Assembly: GCF_000744775.1 (NCBI RefSeq)
Contig: NZ_JQMP01000003.1
Span: forward strand, 992,001 to 1,056,000
Direction of reading: 5' to 3'
Length of the DNA: 64,000 nucleotides
Source: Thermorudis peleae
GTDB taxonomy: Bacteria > Chloroflexota > Chloroflexia > Thermomicrobiales > Thermomicrobiaceae
Part shown: positions 37,223-46,369 of the stretch, one piece after another
Layout: the number at the start of each line of letters is the position of its first letter
Position numbering within the stretch: the stretch's first letter is position 1
Made by a program: the position numbers and the translations under genes
The notes under the pieces: model-generated
What the model was told of the DNA's origin: nothing
Database searches by the model: none
Seen by the model: only the letters and a program-made list of their open reading frames with translations

Positions 37223-38047
37223 TCAGTTTTGGAAGGCTTGGCGGAGTGCCTCATGCAATGATTGGGCGGCCTGTCGCGCTGCGTCGGCAAAGTCACGGCC
37301 ATTGCTTGCGTATATGACTGAGCGGGTTGCTGTGAAAAGTGCCGGCCCATGCCCCTGTCGAACAGCTGCAACAGCTTGGGCAAGATCTCCAGCTTGGGCG
37401 CCGATCCCCGGAATAAGCAACGGAAGTTCCGGGCAAGCCTGTCGCACTGCGGCTAATTCTGCTGGATAGGTTGCGCCAACCACGAGCCCACACGTACCGT
37501 GTTGGGCATGCCACATTCGGACGCGTTGCGCGACGACTTGGTAGATGGGCTGGCCAACTCCGTTTTGTTCCACCACCAGGTCTTGCAGTTCTTTTGCGCC
37601 TGGATTTGAGGTTCGTGCCAGGACGAACACACCATGCTCAGGGCGTAGCAAGAGCGGGCGAAGCCCTTCCTCTCCAACGTACGGCTGCACCGTGACAGCG
37701 TCGAATTGCCAACGGGTGAAAAAGGCTTCGGCGTACGCTGCTGTCGTGCTCGCAATATCTCCGACTTTGGCATCGAGAATAGCAAGGTGAGTGGGGGGGA
37801 TGAGCCGACGCGTTTCTTCAAGCGCAGCGATACCAGCTGGGCCGTGCATCAAATAAAAGGCCAAGTTTGGCTTGTACGCACAAGCAAACGCAGCTGTTGC
37901 CTCAATGATGGCGCGGTTGAAGTGCACAATAGCCTCTGGAGTACGTGGCAAGTGTTGGGGCAGGTGCTCGAGCATCGGGTCAAGCCCAATACAAAGCGGA
38001 GCGCCGCATCGGGCGATCGCTGCTGAGATTCGCTCTTCCCACCGCAT
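37223..38047 (-). CDS. pyrF: Orotidine 5'-phosphate decarboxylase
   Basis: Last step of UMP synthesis, OMP to UMP plus CO2. The 274-residue length and the motif L-A-I-L-D-A-K-V-G-D-I-A-S-T place it in the longer PyrF subfamily. C-I-G-L-D-P near the start, A-R-T-S-N-P-G-A-K and L-L-I-P-G-I-G-A-Q-A-G-D complete the phosphate site. AAGGAGG lies before the ATG. Stands alone, divergent from the dehydratase gene. Confidence 0.95.
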   Translation of the reverse strand: MRWEERISAAIARCGAPLCIGLDPMLEHLPQHLPRTPEAIVHFNRAIIEATAAFACAYKPNLAFYLMHGPAGIAALEETRRLIPPTHLAILDAKVGDIASTTAAYAEAFFTRWQFDAVTVQPYVGEEGLRPLLLRPEHGVFVLARTSNPGAKELQDLVVEQNGVGQPIYQVVAQRVRMWHAQHGTCGLVVGATYPAELAAVRQACPELPLLIPGIGAQAGDLAQAVAAVRQGHGPALFTATRSVIYASNGRDFADAARQAAQSLHEALRQAFQN

Positions 38048-38108
38048 GCTGCCTCCTTGCTAACGATCTTGCGTCCGACCAGCCTGTAAAAATCAGGACA
38101 AAAACGCC

Positions 38109-38137
38109 TAGACATTACCCGCTACGTATCGTACGCT
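38109..38137 (+). promoter_or_regulatory. Possible promoter for the threonine dehydratase gene
   Basis: TAGACA (38109-38114) and TACGCT (38132-38137) are 17 bases apart. The start would lie about 35 bases before the ATG. Confidence 0.4.
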
Positions 38138-38181
38138 GTGTGCGTACAATCCGGAGCACGTGTCTGCGCAGGAAGGGTCAG

Positions 38182-39177
38182 ATGCGCTTGGAGCCACCGA
38201 CATTTCAAGAGATTCTCCGCGCCCGCCAGGTTGTCCGTCGCTATCTGCCGCCGACACCGCTCCTTTATTCTCCGGTGCTCAGCGAACGGCTTGATTGCGA
38301 AGTCTACGTCAAATGCGAGAGTTTGCAGCCGATTGGCGCGTTTAAAGTTCGTGGTGGCGTGTATCTCCTCAGCAAGCTGAGTCCTGAGGAGCGCGCTCGC
38401 GGGGTGGTCACGGCCTCAACCGGCAACCACGGGCAGTCAATTGCCTATGCAGCACGGCTTTTTGGCGCTCGTGCCATCATTTATGCCCCTGAGCAAACTA
38501 ACCCGATCAAGCTTGCTGCGATGCGACGGCTTGGCGCTGAGGTCGTGTTAACGGGCCGAGATTTCGATGAGGCTCGCCAAGCCTGCGAGGAACGTGCCGC
38601 TGCTGAAGGCCTCCGCTATATCCACTCTGCGAACGAACCCGACCTCATCGCTGGCGTAGGGACATACGCTCTCGAAATTCTTGACGAGTTACCCGACCCG
38701 GATGTTGTGATTGTGCCGGTTGGAGCAGGCAGTGGCGTCTGTGGGACCGCGATTGTAATGAAGACTGTCAACCCTGCGATTCGGGTGGTTGGGGTGCAAA
38801 CTGAAGGTATGCCGGTCGTCTACGAATCCTGGCGACAAGGCCGGTTGCTCGCGCTCGAGGGGGGCAGCACATTCGCAGAGGGGTTGGCGACACGTGTTGC
38901 CTTTGAGCTTCCGCTTCGCATCATTCGCGATCTCGTTGATGAGCTGATCCTGGTCAGTGATCGTGAACTCTGCCAGGCAATCGTTGAGTTTCTTGAGGCA
39001 GTTCACCTTGTTGCTGAAGGAGCTGGGGCTGCTTCCTTAGCAGCAGCGCATCGTCTGCAGCCGCAACTTGCCGGTAAGCGTGTCGTGCTTATTCTCAGCG
39101 GTGGCAACATTACCCGTGAAATATTGCAATGGGCAATGGCGGTGGCTGAGCAGCACGCAGCCCAGCCGTCAGCGTAA
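38182..39177 (+). CDS. Threonine ammonia-lyase (PLP, fold type II), catalytic domain only
   Basis: A 331-residue enzyme of the threonine/serine dehydratase group. It probably deaminates threonine to 2-oxobutanoate. The PLP lysine is K55 in I-G-A-F-K-V-R-G-G; S-T-G-N-H-G-Q-S holds the substrate loop and V-G-A-G-S-G-V-C-G-T binds the phosphate. The C-terminal regulatory domain of biosynthetic IlvA is absent, so it resembles catabolic TdcB; serine racemase is possible. GGAAGGG supports ATG 38182. A longer frame back to 37945 lies over pyrF and is not coding. Confidence 0.87.
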   Translation: MRLEPPTFQEILRARQVVRRYLPPTPLLYSPVLSERLDCEVYVKCESLQPIGAFKVRGGVYLLSKLSPEERARGVVTASTGNHGQSIAYAARLFGARAIIYAPEQTNPIKLAAMRRLGAEVVLTGRDFDEARQACEERAAAEGLRYIHSANEPDLIAGVGTYALEILDELPDPDVVIVPVGAGSGVCGTAIVMKTVNPAIRVVGVQTEGMPVVYESWRQGRLLALEGGSTFAEGLATRVAFELPLRIIRDLVDELILVSDRELCQAIVEFLEAVHLVAEGAGAASLAAAHRLQPQLAGKRVVLILSGGNITREILQWAMAVAEQHAAQPSA

Positions 39178-39197: not shown

Positions 39198-41321
39198 ATG
39201 CTCGAGCAGTTTGGACGGTGGTTGAGACGACGACAAGGGATCGAGCGCAACCCACTCTATCGCTTGGCTGAAGATGCCGTTGCTGGGCGGATTCCTGTTG
39301 AGCAGGCCTATGCTGGTGCCGAAGCGCCAACAACGCTCGCACGTCTGGCCGATGGCGATCTCTGGGAAGTTTTGAACGAGTCTGGTCGGATCGCACTCGA
39401 TCATCCAGAGCATGCTCTCCTCCTAGCGCGGTTGGTCATCCTGGCGGCTCGACAAAAGGGCTTTGATCGAGTCTTGATGGAGGCGAATCTGCGTGCAGCG
39501 GATTTGCTTGCTGAGTTAGGAGAGACATCGGAGCAGGAGCTGCATCTCCGAGAAGCGCTTCGCGCTGCGCAACGCATTGCCAACGTCGTTGGCCAACGCC
39601 GAGCTCTGGCACGGCTTGCTCGGCTTGCATTTGATCGCGGCGACCACGAGAAGGCGCGTGAACTCTTGTTGAAGCAGCTTGAATCAGGCCGCGAAGATAC
39701 CGATACGCTTGAAGATGTTGAAACCGCGCTGATGCTTGGAGATCTTGCTCGTCAAGACGGCAATCTTGAGGCTGCCCGTGAGTTCTACCACCGTGCTGCG
39801 CGGAGCGCGCGGCGCGTTGGACACTATGCCGGGATGGTGGATGCGCTGCTCCGCCAGGTCGTTATTCTGCGCGAACTCGGTGACCTCGACGCTGCCTATG
39901 TCCTCTTGCAGCAAGCACAGGAGGCAGCTGAGCGGACGATTGATCACCGGCTGCAGGCTGAGATTGCGATTCAAATTGGCGCGCTCTTAGGAGAGAAAGG
40001 GCGCTTTGCCCATGCCCGTAGTGCGCTTGTTACCGCGCTTGACCGTGCCCGTGCTGCTGGTGACTTAACGATGGAGAGCCGGTGCCTCGTCGGGCTGACC
40101 TCTCTTGAGCGGCGGATTGGCCGCCTGCAAGATGCTGCTGAGCACTATCAACAGCTGGCCAATCTGGAGCGTCGGCTCGGGAATCGATCGGCAGCACTGC
40201 GCGCGGTGCTCGATGCAGCGGAACTCCAGCTCGAAGCGCGTCAGCCTGCGCGTGCTCTCGAACTCATTCAGGGCATCATGGGAGAGATTCCGGAAGATGA
40301 TCTTGCCTTACGGCAGCGCGTATTTGGCTTGCTTGGCCTCGCTCACGGTGCACTCGATCATCGCGGTGAGGCATTAGAGTATCTCTCTAATGCCTTGCAG
40401 CTTGCGCGACAGCGGGATTCTGCTGCTGACGAAGCGCGCTGGCTTGCTGGAGCTGGTGAACTTCTCTTGCAGTTTGGTGAGCTGAGTGATGCTCAAAGTG
40501 CTGCACAGCAGGCAGTGGTACTTGCTCGAAAGGCCGGTGATCCACGGGTTGAAGCACAAGGGCTGGCGCTCCTTGGCGCCGTTTCACTGAATCGTGGACT
40601 TGCTCGAGAAGCCGAATCCTGCTTAAGCCGGGCTGTAGCCCTTGCTGCTGAAACGGGCGATGTCGCTGGGCAGCTGCGTTATCTTCTTTCCCTTGCTGAG
40701 TTGCAGCGTCGACTGACAAATCCTCACGGTGCTATTGGCTACTTACGCCAAGCGCTTGACCTTGCCGCCAGGACCGGTAACGCAGAAGTGCGTGCTCGGC
40801 TCCATGGACAAATCGCACAGCTTTACCAGTCTTTGAATTTTCTCCCGGAGGCTATCGAGCATTACCGTGCTGCGCTTGCGGCCGCACAGGAAATTGACGC
40901 GTTGTCACTTATGGCTCGAGCGCTCCGTGGGCTTGCGATTGTCCTCGATTTGCAAGGCGACACCCAAGAAGCGATTGCCACGTATCGGCAAGCTATTACG
41001 CTCAGTGAGCAACTTGGTGATCGGCGAGCAGCGCTTGCTCTGCACTACAACCTTGGTGCTCTGCTGCTGGATCGGGGCAACGATGGTGAGGCTCGCTACC
41101 ACTTGCGGTTAGCGTACGATTTGGCTCGGCAACTTGGTGAGCGCGAGATGGCTGAAACCATCCGGGATCTCGTTGGCCCGCTGATGCCTTCAGCGAGTGG
41201 GAACCACCGCGACGCATTGCCTTCTGAGACTGCGCAGCAAAGTGACGCCGACGATATTGTTTTGAGTGAGATCACACTCCGCCCGGCTCCTGAACACTAT
41301 CGTGAGCTCTTCCGCGACTAG
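39198..41321 (+). CDS. Tetratricopeptide-repeat protein (707 aa)
   Basis: A soluble, almost wholly alpha-helical protein built of many degenerate TPR units (roughly 14) from about residue 50 to 660, each with patterns such as G-x-x-x-x-A-x-x-x-Y/L-x-x-A-L and A-L-x-L-A. No enzymatic domain or signal peptide is seen. The last 40 residues are acidic and probably unstructured. AAGGGAG precedes the ATG. TPR arrays are protein-binding scaffolds. It lies 20 bases after the dehydratase gene and 74 before a PPM-like membrane protein, which could be its partner. Confidence 0.85.
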   Translation: MLEQFGRWLRRRQGIERNPLYRLAEDAVAGRIPVEQAYAGAEAPTTLARLADGDLWEVLNESGRIALDHPEHALLLARLVILAARQKGFDRVLMEANLRAADLLAELGETSEQELHLREALRAAQRIANVVGQRRALARLARLAFDRGDHEKARELLLKQLESGREDTDTLEDVETALMLGDLARQDGNLEAAREFYHRAARSARRVGHYAGMVDALLRQVVILRELGDLDAAYVLLQQAQEAAERTIDHRLQAEIAIQIGALLGEKGRFAHARSALVTALDRARAAGDLTMESRCLVGLTSLERRIGRLQDAAEHYQQLANLERRLGNRSAALRAVLDAAELQLEARQPARALELIQGIMGEIPEDDLALRQRVFGLLGLAHGALDHRGEALEYLSNALQLARQRDSAADEARWLAGAGELLLQFGELSDAQSAAQQAVVLARKAGDPRVEAQGLALLGAVSLNRGLAREAESCLSRAVALAAETGDVAGQLRYLLSLAELQRRLTNPHGAIGYLRQALDLAARTGNAEVRARLHGQIAQLYQSLNFLPEAIEHYRAALAAAQEIDALSLMARALRGLAIVLDLQGDTQEAIATYRQAITLSEQLGDRRAALALHYNLGALLLDRGNDGEARYHLRLAYDLARQLGEREMAETIRDLVGPLMPSASGNHRDALPSETAQQSDADDIVLSEITLRPAPEHYRELFRD

Positions 41322-41395
41322 CACGCATTCGTACGCAGCAGTTTCCTCCCGCCTCTAGACGTACGTACACCTGCTGTGCTAGACTAGCAGTGCCA

Positions 41396-43834
41396 ATGAG
41401 GCAAGGGTTGGAAACGGTGCGAGTGCTGCCACCGAGTGTGGCGCTGGCAAGGAGGGCGTTTGTGTCACTTGGAGTCGCACAGCGGAGCAGTCGAGTCCAA
41501 CAAGGGCAGCCGTCGAGCGTCACTGGTGGAGTAGCAGCTGTTGCGACGTCGCCCTATAGTCGTTTGTGGCGGCACGGGATGCTTGGAACTCCGGGGAGTC
41601 GGGCACTTGCTGTTGTTTTACAACCAGTCGAAGAAAACCCGCGTAGTGCGCAGCTTGCTGAACAACTCCTCGCATTGTTTGAGCAAGAGTTGTGGCGTGC
41701 TGCACTGCCTCGCTCAGGTCAAACAGTTGACGCTTACACGGCACGAGTACGCCAGGCCTGCCTTGCCGCAAATGATTGGCTTGCTGAATGGAATGCCAGC
41801 ACTACTCCCGATCGACGTTGTTGCTTCGGGTATACCTGTGCATTCTTCTGGGATCGCGAACTCCTTCTTGCGACAGCGCCGCCAGCTGCCACCTTCGTCC
41901 AACAGGACGGCGAATTGTATCGTTTTCCCCTGCGGGACGATCAGGCGTCTCTTCTGCCTCTTGGCCAGCAGCGTGCAGCTGAGCCAGCACTGTACTACAC
42001 CCAAACTGCTCCGCGTGATGTCATTATCCTCACCCGTGCAGAGCTTGGCGCTGCGCTCCTTGAACATGCGGATCCTTCGCTTCTGACGAACCACGACCCT
42101 CGGCCGATTTTTGCCGAATTGCAGGCGATGAGCCAAGAACTCGGATATGAAGAACTTGACGCCGTTGTGCTTGTTCTTCCTGATGTCCGCCCAGGTCGAC
42201 GCCGTCTGCTTGGTGATTGGATATCAGTGGTCCACCGTTTCCGAGGACCTCGGCTTCGCGCTAAGGATGCGTTTGCGTATGATAATGCCGTCGCAGTTGA
42301 CCTTGAAGACGAGAACAGGCAGACTAGCAGTGAGGAGATGGCTCCCAGTGTGGATCGCCGGCCGGATGAGATGCTCGATACTGCCTCGGTCGATGCGCTT
42401 GACGAACAGGAGCAAACTGATCCGGAAACAACGCAGCGCTGGGAGCCGCTCAACGGAGCGTACGATTCTGAGCTGGTAAAACGTGGCAGGGGGAGGGGGG
42501 CAACCCTGCGCGAGACAATAAGTGGCCTCGCTGTTGCGGCAGTCGTAGCGTTCATCGGGTTGTGGCAGGTCCTCTTTCGGCGTCGTCCTAAGATTGCCCC
42601 GCCGCCCGATGACGGGACATTTGGTTTGCCACGTTTGCAACGATATGAAGAGTCGCTTCGCCTTCCGGATTTCACGCCAGTCCGCCGGCAACTTCCTCGG
42701 CTGCCCGTAAGTCCCTTAACTGGGCTCATTGCAGTGAGCGCTCTTGGTTTGCTCTCTGCTGCTTTCGCACTTTCAGTGCGCCATGATCATGAGCAAGCAC
42801 TTCGGTCGCGCTTCGATACCTTGCTGCAGACTGCTGCGCAGGAACGTACGCTGGCGACGCAAAGCTCAAACCCAACTATTGCCCGGGCTTATCTTGAGAC
42901 GGCTAGCCAGCGACTTGATGCTGCAGCCCAGCTTAACCTTGATCCGCAGCGGGTTGCCCAGGAGCGTGCTGCCTTAGCGACAGCCCGGGACCGCGTTTTC
43001 AAGATTACGCGGCTTGAGGGTGTTCAAGTCCTTGGTGCAGTTCCGCCTGCGCCCGAGGGCGTAACTCCTCGCTTGTTCCTTGGTAATGGCCAGCTTTATC
43101 TGCTCACCGATGCGCTCTATCGACTGGACTCGACCGGTACTAAACTCATTCAACTGCTGAAACCTGGAGATACTGTTGATGGCCAGCGCGTTGGCACGTT
43201 GCTCGGTGCTGCCTGGGCTGATGGTGCACCGATCGCTTTCGATGGAGCCAATGCCTACCTCTTTGATCCTACCAGCGCACGGTGGACTCGTCTGCCAATC
43301 GGCACTGTTGGTACAGCTTATCGTGGTGTTGCCCGCGTTGGCTCGTTCTCTGGGAACTTGTACTTGCTCATCCCTCAAAACGGCCAAATCCTCCGTTTCC
43401 TGAGCGGTGCATATCAGAACAAGCCCGAAGATTGGACTGGCGGTCAGGCAGCAGACCAGCTCCACCAGGCACGTGACATGCAGATCGATGGTCGCATCTA
43501 CGTCTTGCTCCAGGATGGGACGATACTCACCTTCTACCGCGGCGCGCTTGAGAGCACGGCAAAGCCAGCTGTTGATCCTGCTGTTACCGACGCTGTCGCG
43601 CTGTCTGCCCAGCCTGATCGTCCATATCGGTACATTGGTCTTGCCGATGGGCGAATTCTCCGCGTGACGACGGATGGTACGCTTGTGCAGCAGTTCATGG
43701 CTGCCGATAACGCACCATCACTTGCTCCAATGCGCGATCTCGTCGTTGATGATATTCTCGGTGTTGCCTATATCTTGACAGACCGTGCTCTGCTGACGGT
43801 TCACTTGCCAGCTGCGCCCGCAGCTGGTCAGTGA
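41396..43834 (+). CDS. Membrane protein with degenerate PPM-phosphatase-like domain and C-terminal beta-propeller-like domain
   Basis: About 812 residues. Residues 55-270 follow the strand/helix order of PPM (PP2C) phosphatases, e.g. C-F-G-Y-T-C-A-F-F-W-D-R-E-L-L-L-A-T-A and P-R-D-V-I-I-L-T-R-A-E-L-G, but the metal-binding Asp residues are missing. An acidic linker (about 290-365) leads to two hydrophobic segments (about 376-390 and 441-460). A coiled segment (about 465-540) and repeated strands such as N-G-Q-L-Y-L-L-T-D-A-L-Y-R-L suggest a propeller. The start could also be GTG 41390. Probably a sensor or scaffold rather than an enzyme; function unknown. Confidence 0.65.
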   Translation: MRQGLETVRVLPPSVALARRAFVSLGVAQRSSRVQQGQPSSVTGGVAAVATSPYSRLWRHGMLGTPGSRALAVVLQPVEENPRSAQLAEQLLALFEQELWRAALPRSGQTVDAYTARVRQACLAANDWLAEWNASTTPDRRCCFGYTCAFFWDRELLLATAPPAATFVQQDGELYRFPLRDDQASLLPLGQQRAAEPALYYTQTAPRDVIILTRAELGAALLEHADPSLLTNHDPRPIFAELQAMSQELGYEELDAVVLVLPDVRPGRRRLLGDWISVVHRFRGPRLRAKDAFAYDNAVAVDLEDENRQTSSEEMAPSVDRRPDEMLDTASVDALDEQEQTDPETTQRWEPLNGAYDSELVKRGRGRGATLRETISGLAVAAVVAFIGLWQVLFRRRPKIAPPPDDGTFGLPRLQRYEESLRLPDFTPVRRQLPRLPVSPLTGLIAVSALGLLSAAFALSVRHDHEQALRSRFDTLLQTAAQERTLATQSSNPTIARAYLETASQRLDAAAQLNLDPQRVAQERAALATARDRVFKITRLEGVQVLGAVPPAPEGVTPRLFLGNGQLYLLTDALYRLDSTGTKLIQLLKPGDTVDGQRVGTLLGAAWADGAPIAFDGANAYLFDPTSARWTRLPIGTVGTAYRGVARVGSFSGNLYLLIPQNGQILRFLSGAYQNKPEDWTGGQAADQLHQARDMQIDGRIYVLLQDGTILTFYRGALESTAKPAVDPAVTDAVALSAQPDRPYRYIGLADGRILRVTTDGTLVQQFMAADNAPSLAPMRDLVVDDILGVAYILTDRALLTVHLPAAPAAGQ

Positions 43835-43859: not shown

Positions 43860-44564
43860 TTACGTCGTCGAAGATACTGGCCGACAGTGAGTAGCAGGCA
43901 CCATAACCTGTCGGCCTTCATTGTCTTGGATGAGAATGGCAGCATCGCGGGTATCGACACGGAGGACGCGCCCAGGACCGTTCGGCGTTTCAACCCACGA
44001 TCCGAGGCGGGGATAGTGCGGTTGAGCATAATCATGGCGTGCGAACAGCCGCGCGAGCGCCTGCTCACATTCTCGCTGCGTTTCATCGTGTGGCAGGCCA
44101 ACGCTGCCGATGTGCGAGGGGGCTTTTGCCTGTTCCTCAATTACCACGGTTTGGCTAAGCTGGGAGCTTAGCCATGGGCCAAGCTGTGTCGGCAGAGGAT
44201 GCTGTGACCAGATCCCGATGACTATCCCGTCCGAAAGTGTTGGACGAACTTCATTGAATTGTGCCTCTGGAGCAGCTTGCGCAAGAGCCTCTATTACCCG
44301 CGGCACAAGACGGCTGGCACGTAGCACATGCTGTCGAATTGCTCGTCGTTCACTCTCTGTAAGCGGACGCCATGCTATCGTTTGCGCTTGTCTGATGTTG
44401 CCGAGACAGTGGCCGGGTGTGACAAGCACGCGTGCTACTTCCTCGCCAGCTGGCCCCGCAACGGCGATCCATTCCGGCGGTGGGGCTTCAACGTGAAGAA
44501 GTTCAAGCTGGCTCTTGCCTAATCGCCGGATCCCGACGATGGTCTGCGTACGCTGGGATTTCAT
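43860..44564 (-). CDS. Divergent YaaT/PSP1-like protein
   Basis: A 234-residue protein. The start T-I-V-G-I-R-R-L-G-K, the middle helical stretch beginning L-T-E-S-E-R-R-A-I-R and the end P-R-L-G-S-W-V-E-T-P-N-G-P-G-R-V-L-R-V match the order of elements in YaaT (PSP1 family), which follows holB in many Gram-positive bacteria. The Cys-rich centre of YaaT (G-x-C-G-R-x-x-C-C) is absent. ATG at 44564 overlaps the holB stop as ATGA, fixing the start. Assignment rests on weak similarity plus synteny; YaaT takes part in RNase Y and sporulation control in Bacillus. Confidence 0.5.
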   Translation of the reverse strand: MKSQRTQTIVGIRRLGKSQLELLHVEAPPPEWIAVAGPAGEEVARVLVTPGHCLGNIRQAQTIAWRPLTESERRAIRQHVLRASRLVPRVIEALAQAAPEAQFNEVRPTLSDGIVIGIWSQHPLPTQLGPWLSSQLSQTVVIEEQAKAPSHIGSVGLPHDETQRECEQALARLFARHDYAQPHYPRLGSWVETPNGPGRVLRVDTRDAAILIQDNEGRQVMVPATHCRPVSSTT

Positions 44565-45598
44565 GCTGGTGGATTTGGCCATGCGAGCACCATCGTGTCA
44601 AGGGCAAGACGGGCTTGAACGTTAGCCTCAAGATCGGCAAGCGCACGGCACGTTGCGGCAAGTCCTTGGGCAATTGCGGCGATGTCCCACCGCTGTGCCA
44701 ACGAATCAAGGGTCTCGCGGAATTCGACGAAGGCGATCCGCTCGCTGAGGCCAGCGCGAAGAGCAAGAAGGTCGTCCCAGAGCGTGATAAGCACACTCAG
44801 CTGATGCGTAACTGTCTCACGCTGACCACGCCGATAGCGTTCAGCAAGCTCGCGTGCCTGGAGCAGTGCGTTGAGCCGATTCGTCAGCATGGTAAGGCCG
44901 ATCTGTCCTGCAGTGCGATAACGCTCGAGCTGGGCAGGATCCTCTGCAAGTTGTAGCGCGAGCCCAACTCGTCCTTGGCTGAGTTGGGCAATAAGCGCTG
45001 CATCGCTCGAAGGATAGCCTTGTGCCTCAAGGACAGCACGAACGCGCATTCGTGGCACCGGATGCAAAGGAATCAGCTGACAGCGCGACCGCACCGTTTC
45101 TGGCAGGTCTTCAGGGCTGGTTACGATTAAGAGGAAGATCGCATACGACGGTGGTTCCTCAAGGGTCTTGAGCAGGGCATCGGCAGCGTCATGCGAAAGT
45201 TCGTCAGCACCATCAAGGAGCACGATACGGTATGGAGCCTCAAGCGGGCGAAGCGTGATCGCTGTCCGGATCTCGCGGATCGTTTCAATCGAAATCCGAG
45301 TATTGCCTCCATGCGTGTCGCCTTGAGGAGATGATATCGTGATGAAGTCAGGATGCGTTCCGTGGCTTATGCGTCGACAGGCGGGACACTGGCCGCACGG
45401 CCGTTCGTCATCAGGAGCTTGACAGCAAAGCGCTTGACTAAAGCGCACGGCGAGCGTGCGCCGGCCAATGTGCGGCGGCCCGCTGAAAAGGTAGGCATGA
45501 GCAAGCTGTCCGCGCGATAGTGCTTGCTGCAGTTGGCGTACAGCTGCCTCATGGCCAATTATGTTCCAGTTGTGATTACTCCTGATCTCTTCAGTCAT
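44561..45598 (-). CDS. holB: DNA polymerase III subunit delta'
   Basis: A 345-residue clamp-loader AAA+ subunit. H-A-Y-L-F-S-G-P-P-H-I-G-R-R-T-L is the P-loop with Arg in place of Lys, as in non-hydrolysing delta'. The zinc site follows with C-C-Q-A-P then C-G-Q-C-P-A-C, then D-E-L-S-H-D-A-A-D-A-L-L-K-T-L-E-E-P-P and S-R-C. It orients the sliding-clamp loader. Translationally coupled to the YaaT-like gene downstream and 6 bases after the NERD-like gene. Confidence 0.92.
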   Translation of the reverse strand: MTEEIRSNHNWNIIGHEAAVRQLQQALSRGQLAHAYLFSGPPHIGRRTLAVRFSQALCCQAPDDERPCGQCPACRRISHGTHPDFITISSPQGDTHGGNTRISIETIREIRTAITLRPLEAPYRIVLLDGADELSHDAADALLKTLEEPPSYAIFLLIVTSPEDLPETVRSRCQLIPLHPVPRMRVRAVLEAQGYPSSDAALIAQLSQGRVGLALQLAEDPAQLERYRTAGQIGLTMLTNRLNALLQARELAERYRRGQRETVTHQLSVLITLWDDLLALRAGLSERIAFVEFRETLDSLAQRWDIAAIAQGLAATCRALADLEANVQARLALDTMVLAWPNPPA

Positions 45599-45604
45599 GC
45601 GTCG

Positions 45605-46369
45605 CTATGCTGTCCGAGCCTTTTTCTCCTCTGCTATGCGTGTTGGGAGCGCAATTGGCCCTTCGACAGCCTCGCCTTGTGAGAGCGCCGTAACGATTTC
45701 CTCGATCTCTTTGGCATGGAGCCGGCGCTCGTTGCCGAGCGCACGCACGGCGTCGGGGAGCTCTTTCCGTGTGACGACAGTTAGCTCGCTTTGAATGACT
45801 TGCAGTTCGACGCGGTCGTTAACAAAAACAATCAATCCCTCGATCGTATCAGCTCCCGGCAAGTCTTGCTGTTCAAGAAATGACTTAAGTGCTTCCTGTT
45901 GTCCGAGACATTCAACGGTTGGATTGCCAAGAGGTGGCCCCCCGAACGTGAAGATGCGGAGCAACAGATTATCGAGCCGGCGCCAGCGTTTTCCATTTAC
46001 CTGAATGCGCCCAGCAAGTTCGCGCGTGGTAATCACAAGCAGGCCACCAGGCCATACTAGGATGTGTTCAGGAGGAAAACGGCCACTGATATTCGGGTAA
46101 TGGATCAGCGTATATCGGTCATTGAGTCGCCGTAGGGTGCTATCAAGCAATTCGTCGGGACGTGGACGGTGATTCCATTTTGCCCAGCTCTGCATGCCAG
46201 CATTGAACGAAAGAAACCCTGCAATGAGGACAATGTAGGCGCCAATGAGGAGTTGCGGATAGAGCGTCATCACGATAGAGCCAAACAGACAGAGTAAGCC
46301 CGCGACGAGGAGCAGTCGTGAGACGCGTTGGTGTGTTTTGATTGTTCCAACATTGCGAACGACACGCAC
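45605..46369 (-). CDS. Membrane protein with NERD-like nuclease-related domain
   Basis: A 254-residue protein with two hydrophobic segments (about 19-37 and 40-58). A soluble domain follows the NERD pattern: L-L-D-S-T-L-R-R-L, then H-I-L-V-W-P-G-G-L-L-V-I-T-T-R-E-L-A-G-R-I, and N-P-T-V-E-C-L-G-Q-Q-E-A-L. NERD domains are related to Holliday-junction-resolvase-like nucleases; activity is mostly untested. The usual late acidic residues are hard to place, so catalysis is uncertain. GTG start at 46369. Confidence 0.65.
   Translation of the reverse strand: MRVVRNVGTIKTHQRVSRLLLVAGLLCLFGSIVMTLYPQLLIGAYIVLIAGFLSFNAGMQSWAKWNHRPRPDELLDSTLRRLNDRYTLIHYPNISGRFPPEHILVWPGGLLVITTRELAGRIQVNGKRWRRLDNLLLRIFTFGGPPLGNPTVECLGQQEALKSFLEQQDLPGADTIEGLIVFVNDRVELQVIQSELTVVTRKELPDAVRALGNERRLHAKEIEEIVTALSQGEAVEGPIALPTRIAEEKKARTA

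Follow-up and report, generated by a model that had tools for sequence, protein, structure and literature searches.

Enzymes of the PPM/PP2C superfamily are recognised by a common fold and by conserved metal-binding aspartates; among bacterial Ser/Thr phosphatases, the superfamily includes PstP, tPphA and Stp1. PstP consists of a PPM domain, a linker, one membrane segment and a part outside the cell, and the mycobacterial receptor kinase PknD has a cytoplasmic signalling domain, a membrane segment and an outside β-propeller. To our knowledge, the PPM pseudophosphatases described so far, including those in the literature searched, are all eukaryotic. TAB1 and PHLPP2 combine the PPM fold with degraded metal sites, and PHLPP2 has been shown to be inactive (PMC12002173); neither is a membrane-propeller protein. 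The literature searched yielded no description of a protein joining a pseudo-PPM domain to a propeller, neither “propeller” nor “inactive” appears in a survey of PP2C domains in bacteria from 2025 (PMC12088040), and no Pfam or NCBIfam model covers such a protein.

A protein of this kind is encoded in the 64,000-nucleotide stretch of the Thermorudis peleae genome analysed here (the window), next to the gene of a tetratricopeptide repeat (TPR) protein. Its N-terminal domain has its fold in common with PstP, tPphA and Stp1, but it lacks every metal ligand of these phosphatases and carries a propeller where PstP has its outside part. As in PknD, a β-propeller follows a membrane segment, the membrane side being a prediction; however, a dead phosphatase domain stands in place of the kinase (no Hanks-type kinase domain was matched in the protein) and a helical hairpin precedes the propeller. 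The likeness to TAB1 and PHLPP2 lies in the PPM fold and the degraded metal site and does not extend to any demonstrated close sequence relation; the metal site decayed separately, to judge from the differing context of the residues replaced. The C-terminal half is alike in fold to propellers of the BamB/YxaL type, at low TM-scores and with no sequence relation shown, but those propellers lack a PPM domain. A bacterial pseudo-PPM domain, fixed throughout a phylum and mounted on a membrane propeller, would be a test case for the use of a dead phosphatase domain in bacterial Ser/Thr signalling.

The gene pair and its distribution

Both genes, that of the TPR protein and that of the pseudo-PPM protein, are real and stand next to each other in the window (Table 1). 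The product of the first is a TPR array over nearly its entire length, as the initial annotation had claimed (TPR_12, E 2.6e-38, eight matching stretches); its tail is variable apart from a short conserved motif (E(A/T)TLPP in many members of family f3), which is a possible docking peptide. The second gene lies on the plus strand, and a strong Shine-Dalgarno sequence six bases 5' of an in-frame GTG makes that codon its likely start, giving a protein of 790 rather than 814 residues. The gene is present in one copy in the host genome, and scans for promoters and terminators at the locus gave no signal exceeding chance.

Table 1. Features of the locus, in window coordinates; residues are numbered along the 814-residue open reading frame.
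Feature	Position	Strand	Basis and remarks
PALP gene (serine/threonine dehydratase-like)	37945..39177	+	PF00291, E 2.7e-86; upstream in the same cluster; start uncertain
TPR protein, 707 aa	39198..41321	+	Pfam TPR matches; full-length orthologs within the order alone
C-terminal tail motif DDIVLSEITL of the TPR protein	41250..41279	+	Conserved beyond a variable linker
Shine-Dalgarno AAGGAGG	41449..41455	+	Read from the sequence
Pseudo-PPM/propeller membrane protein, likely 790 aa	41462..43834	+	Longest ORF, 814 aa, runs from 41390
PPM-fold domain without metal ligands (residues 46-278)	41525..42223	+	Profile, profile-profile and fold searches
Acidic linker (residues 286-365)	42245..42484	+	80 residues with 21 D/E against 9 K/R; not universal
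Hydropathic segment 1 (residues 373-397)	42506..42580	+	Hydropathy; limited to some of the order's proteins and a handful of other relatives
Hydropathic segment 2 (residues 438-464)	42701..42781	+	Hydropathy; anchor common to the whole family
Helical hairpin past the membrane anchor	42770..43000	+	Predicted structure, pLDDT mostly 75-95
β-propeller domain	43004..43825	+	Profile matches, predicted structure, fold search

Full-length orthologs of the TPR protein are confined to the Thermomicrobiales, where almost every genome has a match with an E-value of 1e-42 or lower; matches in the same class outside the order are partial, the best at 2e-17. The two genes lie side by side on one strand in 26 of the 28 Thermomicrobiales loci scored for both. 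The co-occurrence expected of the pair was found within this order only: the second protein is found phylum-wide, usually without a TPR neighbour, and the loci of the phylum sample had neither a TPR gene of this kind nor any other fixed neighbour. The stop codon of the PALP gene overlaps or nears the TPR start in many relatives, and translational coupling of the two genes, through overlaps of 1-4 bases, is apparent in several genera.

A genome search within Chloroflexota found the C-terminal half by profile in 164 of 301 sampled genomes; the N-domain profile matched in 195 of the 301, a figure that includes some intact PPMs. A sample of 40 loci, drawn from 32 families, has both domains in one open reading frame; most of these loci were picked because both matches stood on one contig. 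No relative was found by tblastn of plasmids. Judged by these sequence matches, the dead-phosphatase/propeller protein is phylum-wide and no local oddity. Family f2 departs from this arrangement, the pseudo-PPM half being split off in some genomes and absent in others (loci L065, L066, L067 and L068): it forms a separate open reading frame in G030 and G032, and was not found in G021, G025 and G028, which kept the membrane/propeller half. Two of these last three genomes still have the TPR gene beside that half, so the TPR protein cannot act solely through the pseudo-PPM domain.

A PPM fold without metal ligands

Searched as a single sequence, the second protein gave nothing above the curated cut-offs of Pfam and no match in the PDB; its relationships are seen only with profiles. 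A profile of the N-terminal domain, built from 31 Thermomicrobiales sequences, matched the solved structures of tPphA (2j82, E 9e-15) and PstP (1txo, E 2.4e-8), and aligned with the intact PPMs of Thermomicrobiales over 206 columns (hhalign, 98.4%). Structure models of this domain and of the C-terminal half, built from two sequences (that of the window and that of Thermalbibacter longus, Thermomicrobiales, locus L031), are of low to moderate confidence. The N-domain model has a mean pLDDT of 54 and is weak evidence alone; the best 50 PDB matches listed by Foldseek were all of PPM/PP2C type, TAB1 included, although E 0.001 was reached by none of them. The initial annotation had proposed a phosphatase-like domain and allowed that the region might prove to be another fold; by profile and by model, it is of PPM/PP2C fold.

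The proposed lack of metal ligands is equally borne out. In an alignment of 31 sequences from the order and 40 from across the phylum, with 12 intact PPMs as controls, all five metal-binding aspartates are present in each of the 12 controls and none is left in the window copy, where those of the RxxNED, ADG, GDSR, SDG and DN motifs are replaced by Pro, Gln, Pro, Ala and Glu, respectively. Each of the 71 relatives retains at most two of the five. The replacements recur: the GDSR aspartate has become Pro in 64 of the 71, and the ADG aspartate Glu in 55. A single branch with a support of 1.0 splits intact from dead PPM domains in the tree; as the intact PPMs included are a narrow set, this is compatible with a single loss of the ligands rather than proof of it. 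On the strength of this alignment, the N-terminal domain is predicted to be catalytically dead, and the loss of its metal ligands is old and fixed. Its persistence throughout the phylum argues for selection for a non-catalytic role.

Linker, membrane anchor and propeller

The linker, described as acidic from the window copy, is indeed so there; among 34 Thermomicrobiales relatives, it carries a net negative charge in 22 and is not acidic in a third. The two membrane segments reported likewise appear as hydropathic segments in the window copy, but only the second is family-wide: by hydropathy, a single membrane segment is seen in 49 of 81 proteins and a pair of segments in 28. The N-terminal flank of the last segment is more positive than its C-terminal flank in 69 of 80 proteins, and the propeller is for this reason predicted to lie, most likely, outside the cytoplasm. 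The charges that flank the extra segment of the window's family, a possible second crossing, point the opposite way, so that the PPM domain of this family may lie on either side of the membrane.

The propeller-like domain of the initial annotation was recovered by both profile and fold. The profile of the C-terminal half matched designed propellers and, weakly, the propeller chain 8pkr (E 8e-4), whose annotation reads Ser/Thr kinase, and a fold search with the model (mean pLDDT 65.5, the middle of the propeller being poorly modelled) returned YxaL, BamB and designed propellers. By these predictions, the C-terminal half is a helical hairpin followed by a β-propeller; because the TM-scores are low, the assignment is one of fold class and stops short of blade number and propeller subclass.

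Possible roles and genomic setting

A conserved domain stripped of its metal ligands, tied to a membrane anchor and a probably external propeller, suggests a receptor or a docking scaffold. We tentatively favour, at somewhat less than even chances, a transmembrane pseudophosphatase of this kind, with the order-specific TPR protein as its cytoplasmic partner. The PPM-fold domain, devoid of the residues of the metal pair, would be tied by a flexible linker (acidic in the window copy) and the anchor to the hairpin and propeller. The propeller's ligand would be external or belong to the envelope. On the inner side, the PPM fold would be a protein-docking module instead of an enzyme, by analogy with eukaryotic TAB1. 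The TPR protein is a likely cytoplasmic partner in Thermomicrobiales, and might make contact through its C-terminal motif. A sensing role is plausible. Within this reading, the fold class, the missing metal ligands, the conservation and the pairing of the genes come from the sequences themselves; the side of the membrane, the sensing of a ligand, the docking role and the contact with the TPR protein are inferred. A broader version, more doubtful, is that bacterial transmembrane pseudophosphatase receptors are ancient in Chloroflexota, with a propeller that senses the envelope, a dead PPM domain that steers Ser/Thr phospho-signalling and a TPR adaptor added in Thermomicrobiales. Such signalling is available to the host, since its genome has three Ser/Thr kinases, one intact PPM and, near the latter, FHA-like genes (assigned by eye); gene position links no kinase to the pseudo-PPM locus. 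One host Ser/Thr kinase (L205, 415-2370, minus strand) has a propeller-like C-terminal half of PQQ-like repeats and no evident membrane segment.

The protein could instead organise the envelope without passing any signal, the hairpin and propeller being BamB-like or wall-binding and the dead PPM domain and TPR protein holding cytoplasmic proteins at the membrane. We regard this as possible rather than probable: single-copy, phylum-wide distribution suits a structural part, the fold matches include BamB and other non-sensor propellers, and the f2 genomes that lost the PPM half kept the propeller half, but the retention of the PPM domain and its motifs in nearly all other lineages suggests a specific job.

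With a similarly limited probability, the adjacency of the TPR and pseudo-PPM genes may reflect operon history only, the TPR protein serving another partner such as the PALP enzyme. The 1-4 base PALP/TPR overlaps would fit such a history, as would two genomes that keep the PALP-TPR pair with the pseudo-PPM gene turned round, and the existence of the membrane protein without this TPR protein beyond the order; at four f3 loci, however, the TPR gene has no PALP gene beside it and still adjoins the pseudo-PPM gene.

That the N-terminal domain still has some atypical activity or holds one structural metal, and is not a pure pseudo-enzyme, is improbable. The frequent Glu at the ADG position could be read in this sense, and a single bound metal is known for both TAB1 and PHLPP2 (PMC12002173); but known PPMs need at least two metals for catalysis (PMC12002173), and the window copy has Gln at that position and none of the five aspartates.

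The secretion-linked assembly once proposed has in its favour only a broad likeness to machinery in which TPR proteins and pseudo-enzymes take part, and is very hard to reconcile with the local neighbourhoods, in which no secretion ATPase or channel gene adjoins the window gene or its relatives: the identified window neighbours, of housekeeping or glycosyltransferase type, encode OMP decarboxylase, PALP, DNA polymerase III δ', a NERD protein, glycosyltransferases, DUF1015 and MutS, and relatives adjoin tsaD-, ychF-, zwf- or moxR-like genes (assigned by eye). PADLOC returned a generic TPR match only and no anti-phage defence model.

In two Chloroflexia genomes (L164 and L169), a similar small lipoprotein-like gene lies immediately 3' of the pseudo-PPM gene. 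In the window, a 240-residue protein with no Pfam match (43860-44582, minus strand) adjoins the DNA polymerase III δ' gene; it diverges fast, with about 24-37% between genera, and its position is kept in the order. A NERD-domain protein with hydrophobic N-terminal segments (45605-46369, minus strand) has a place that is conserved in the window's family.
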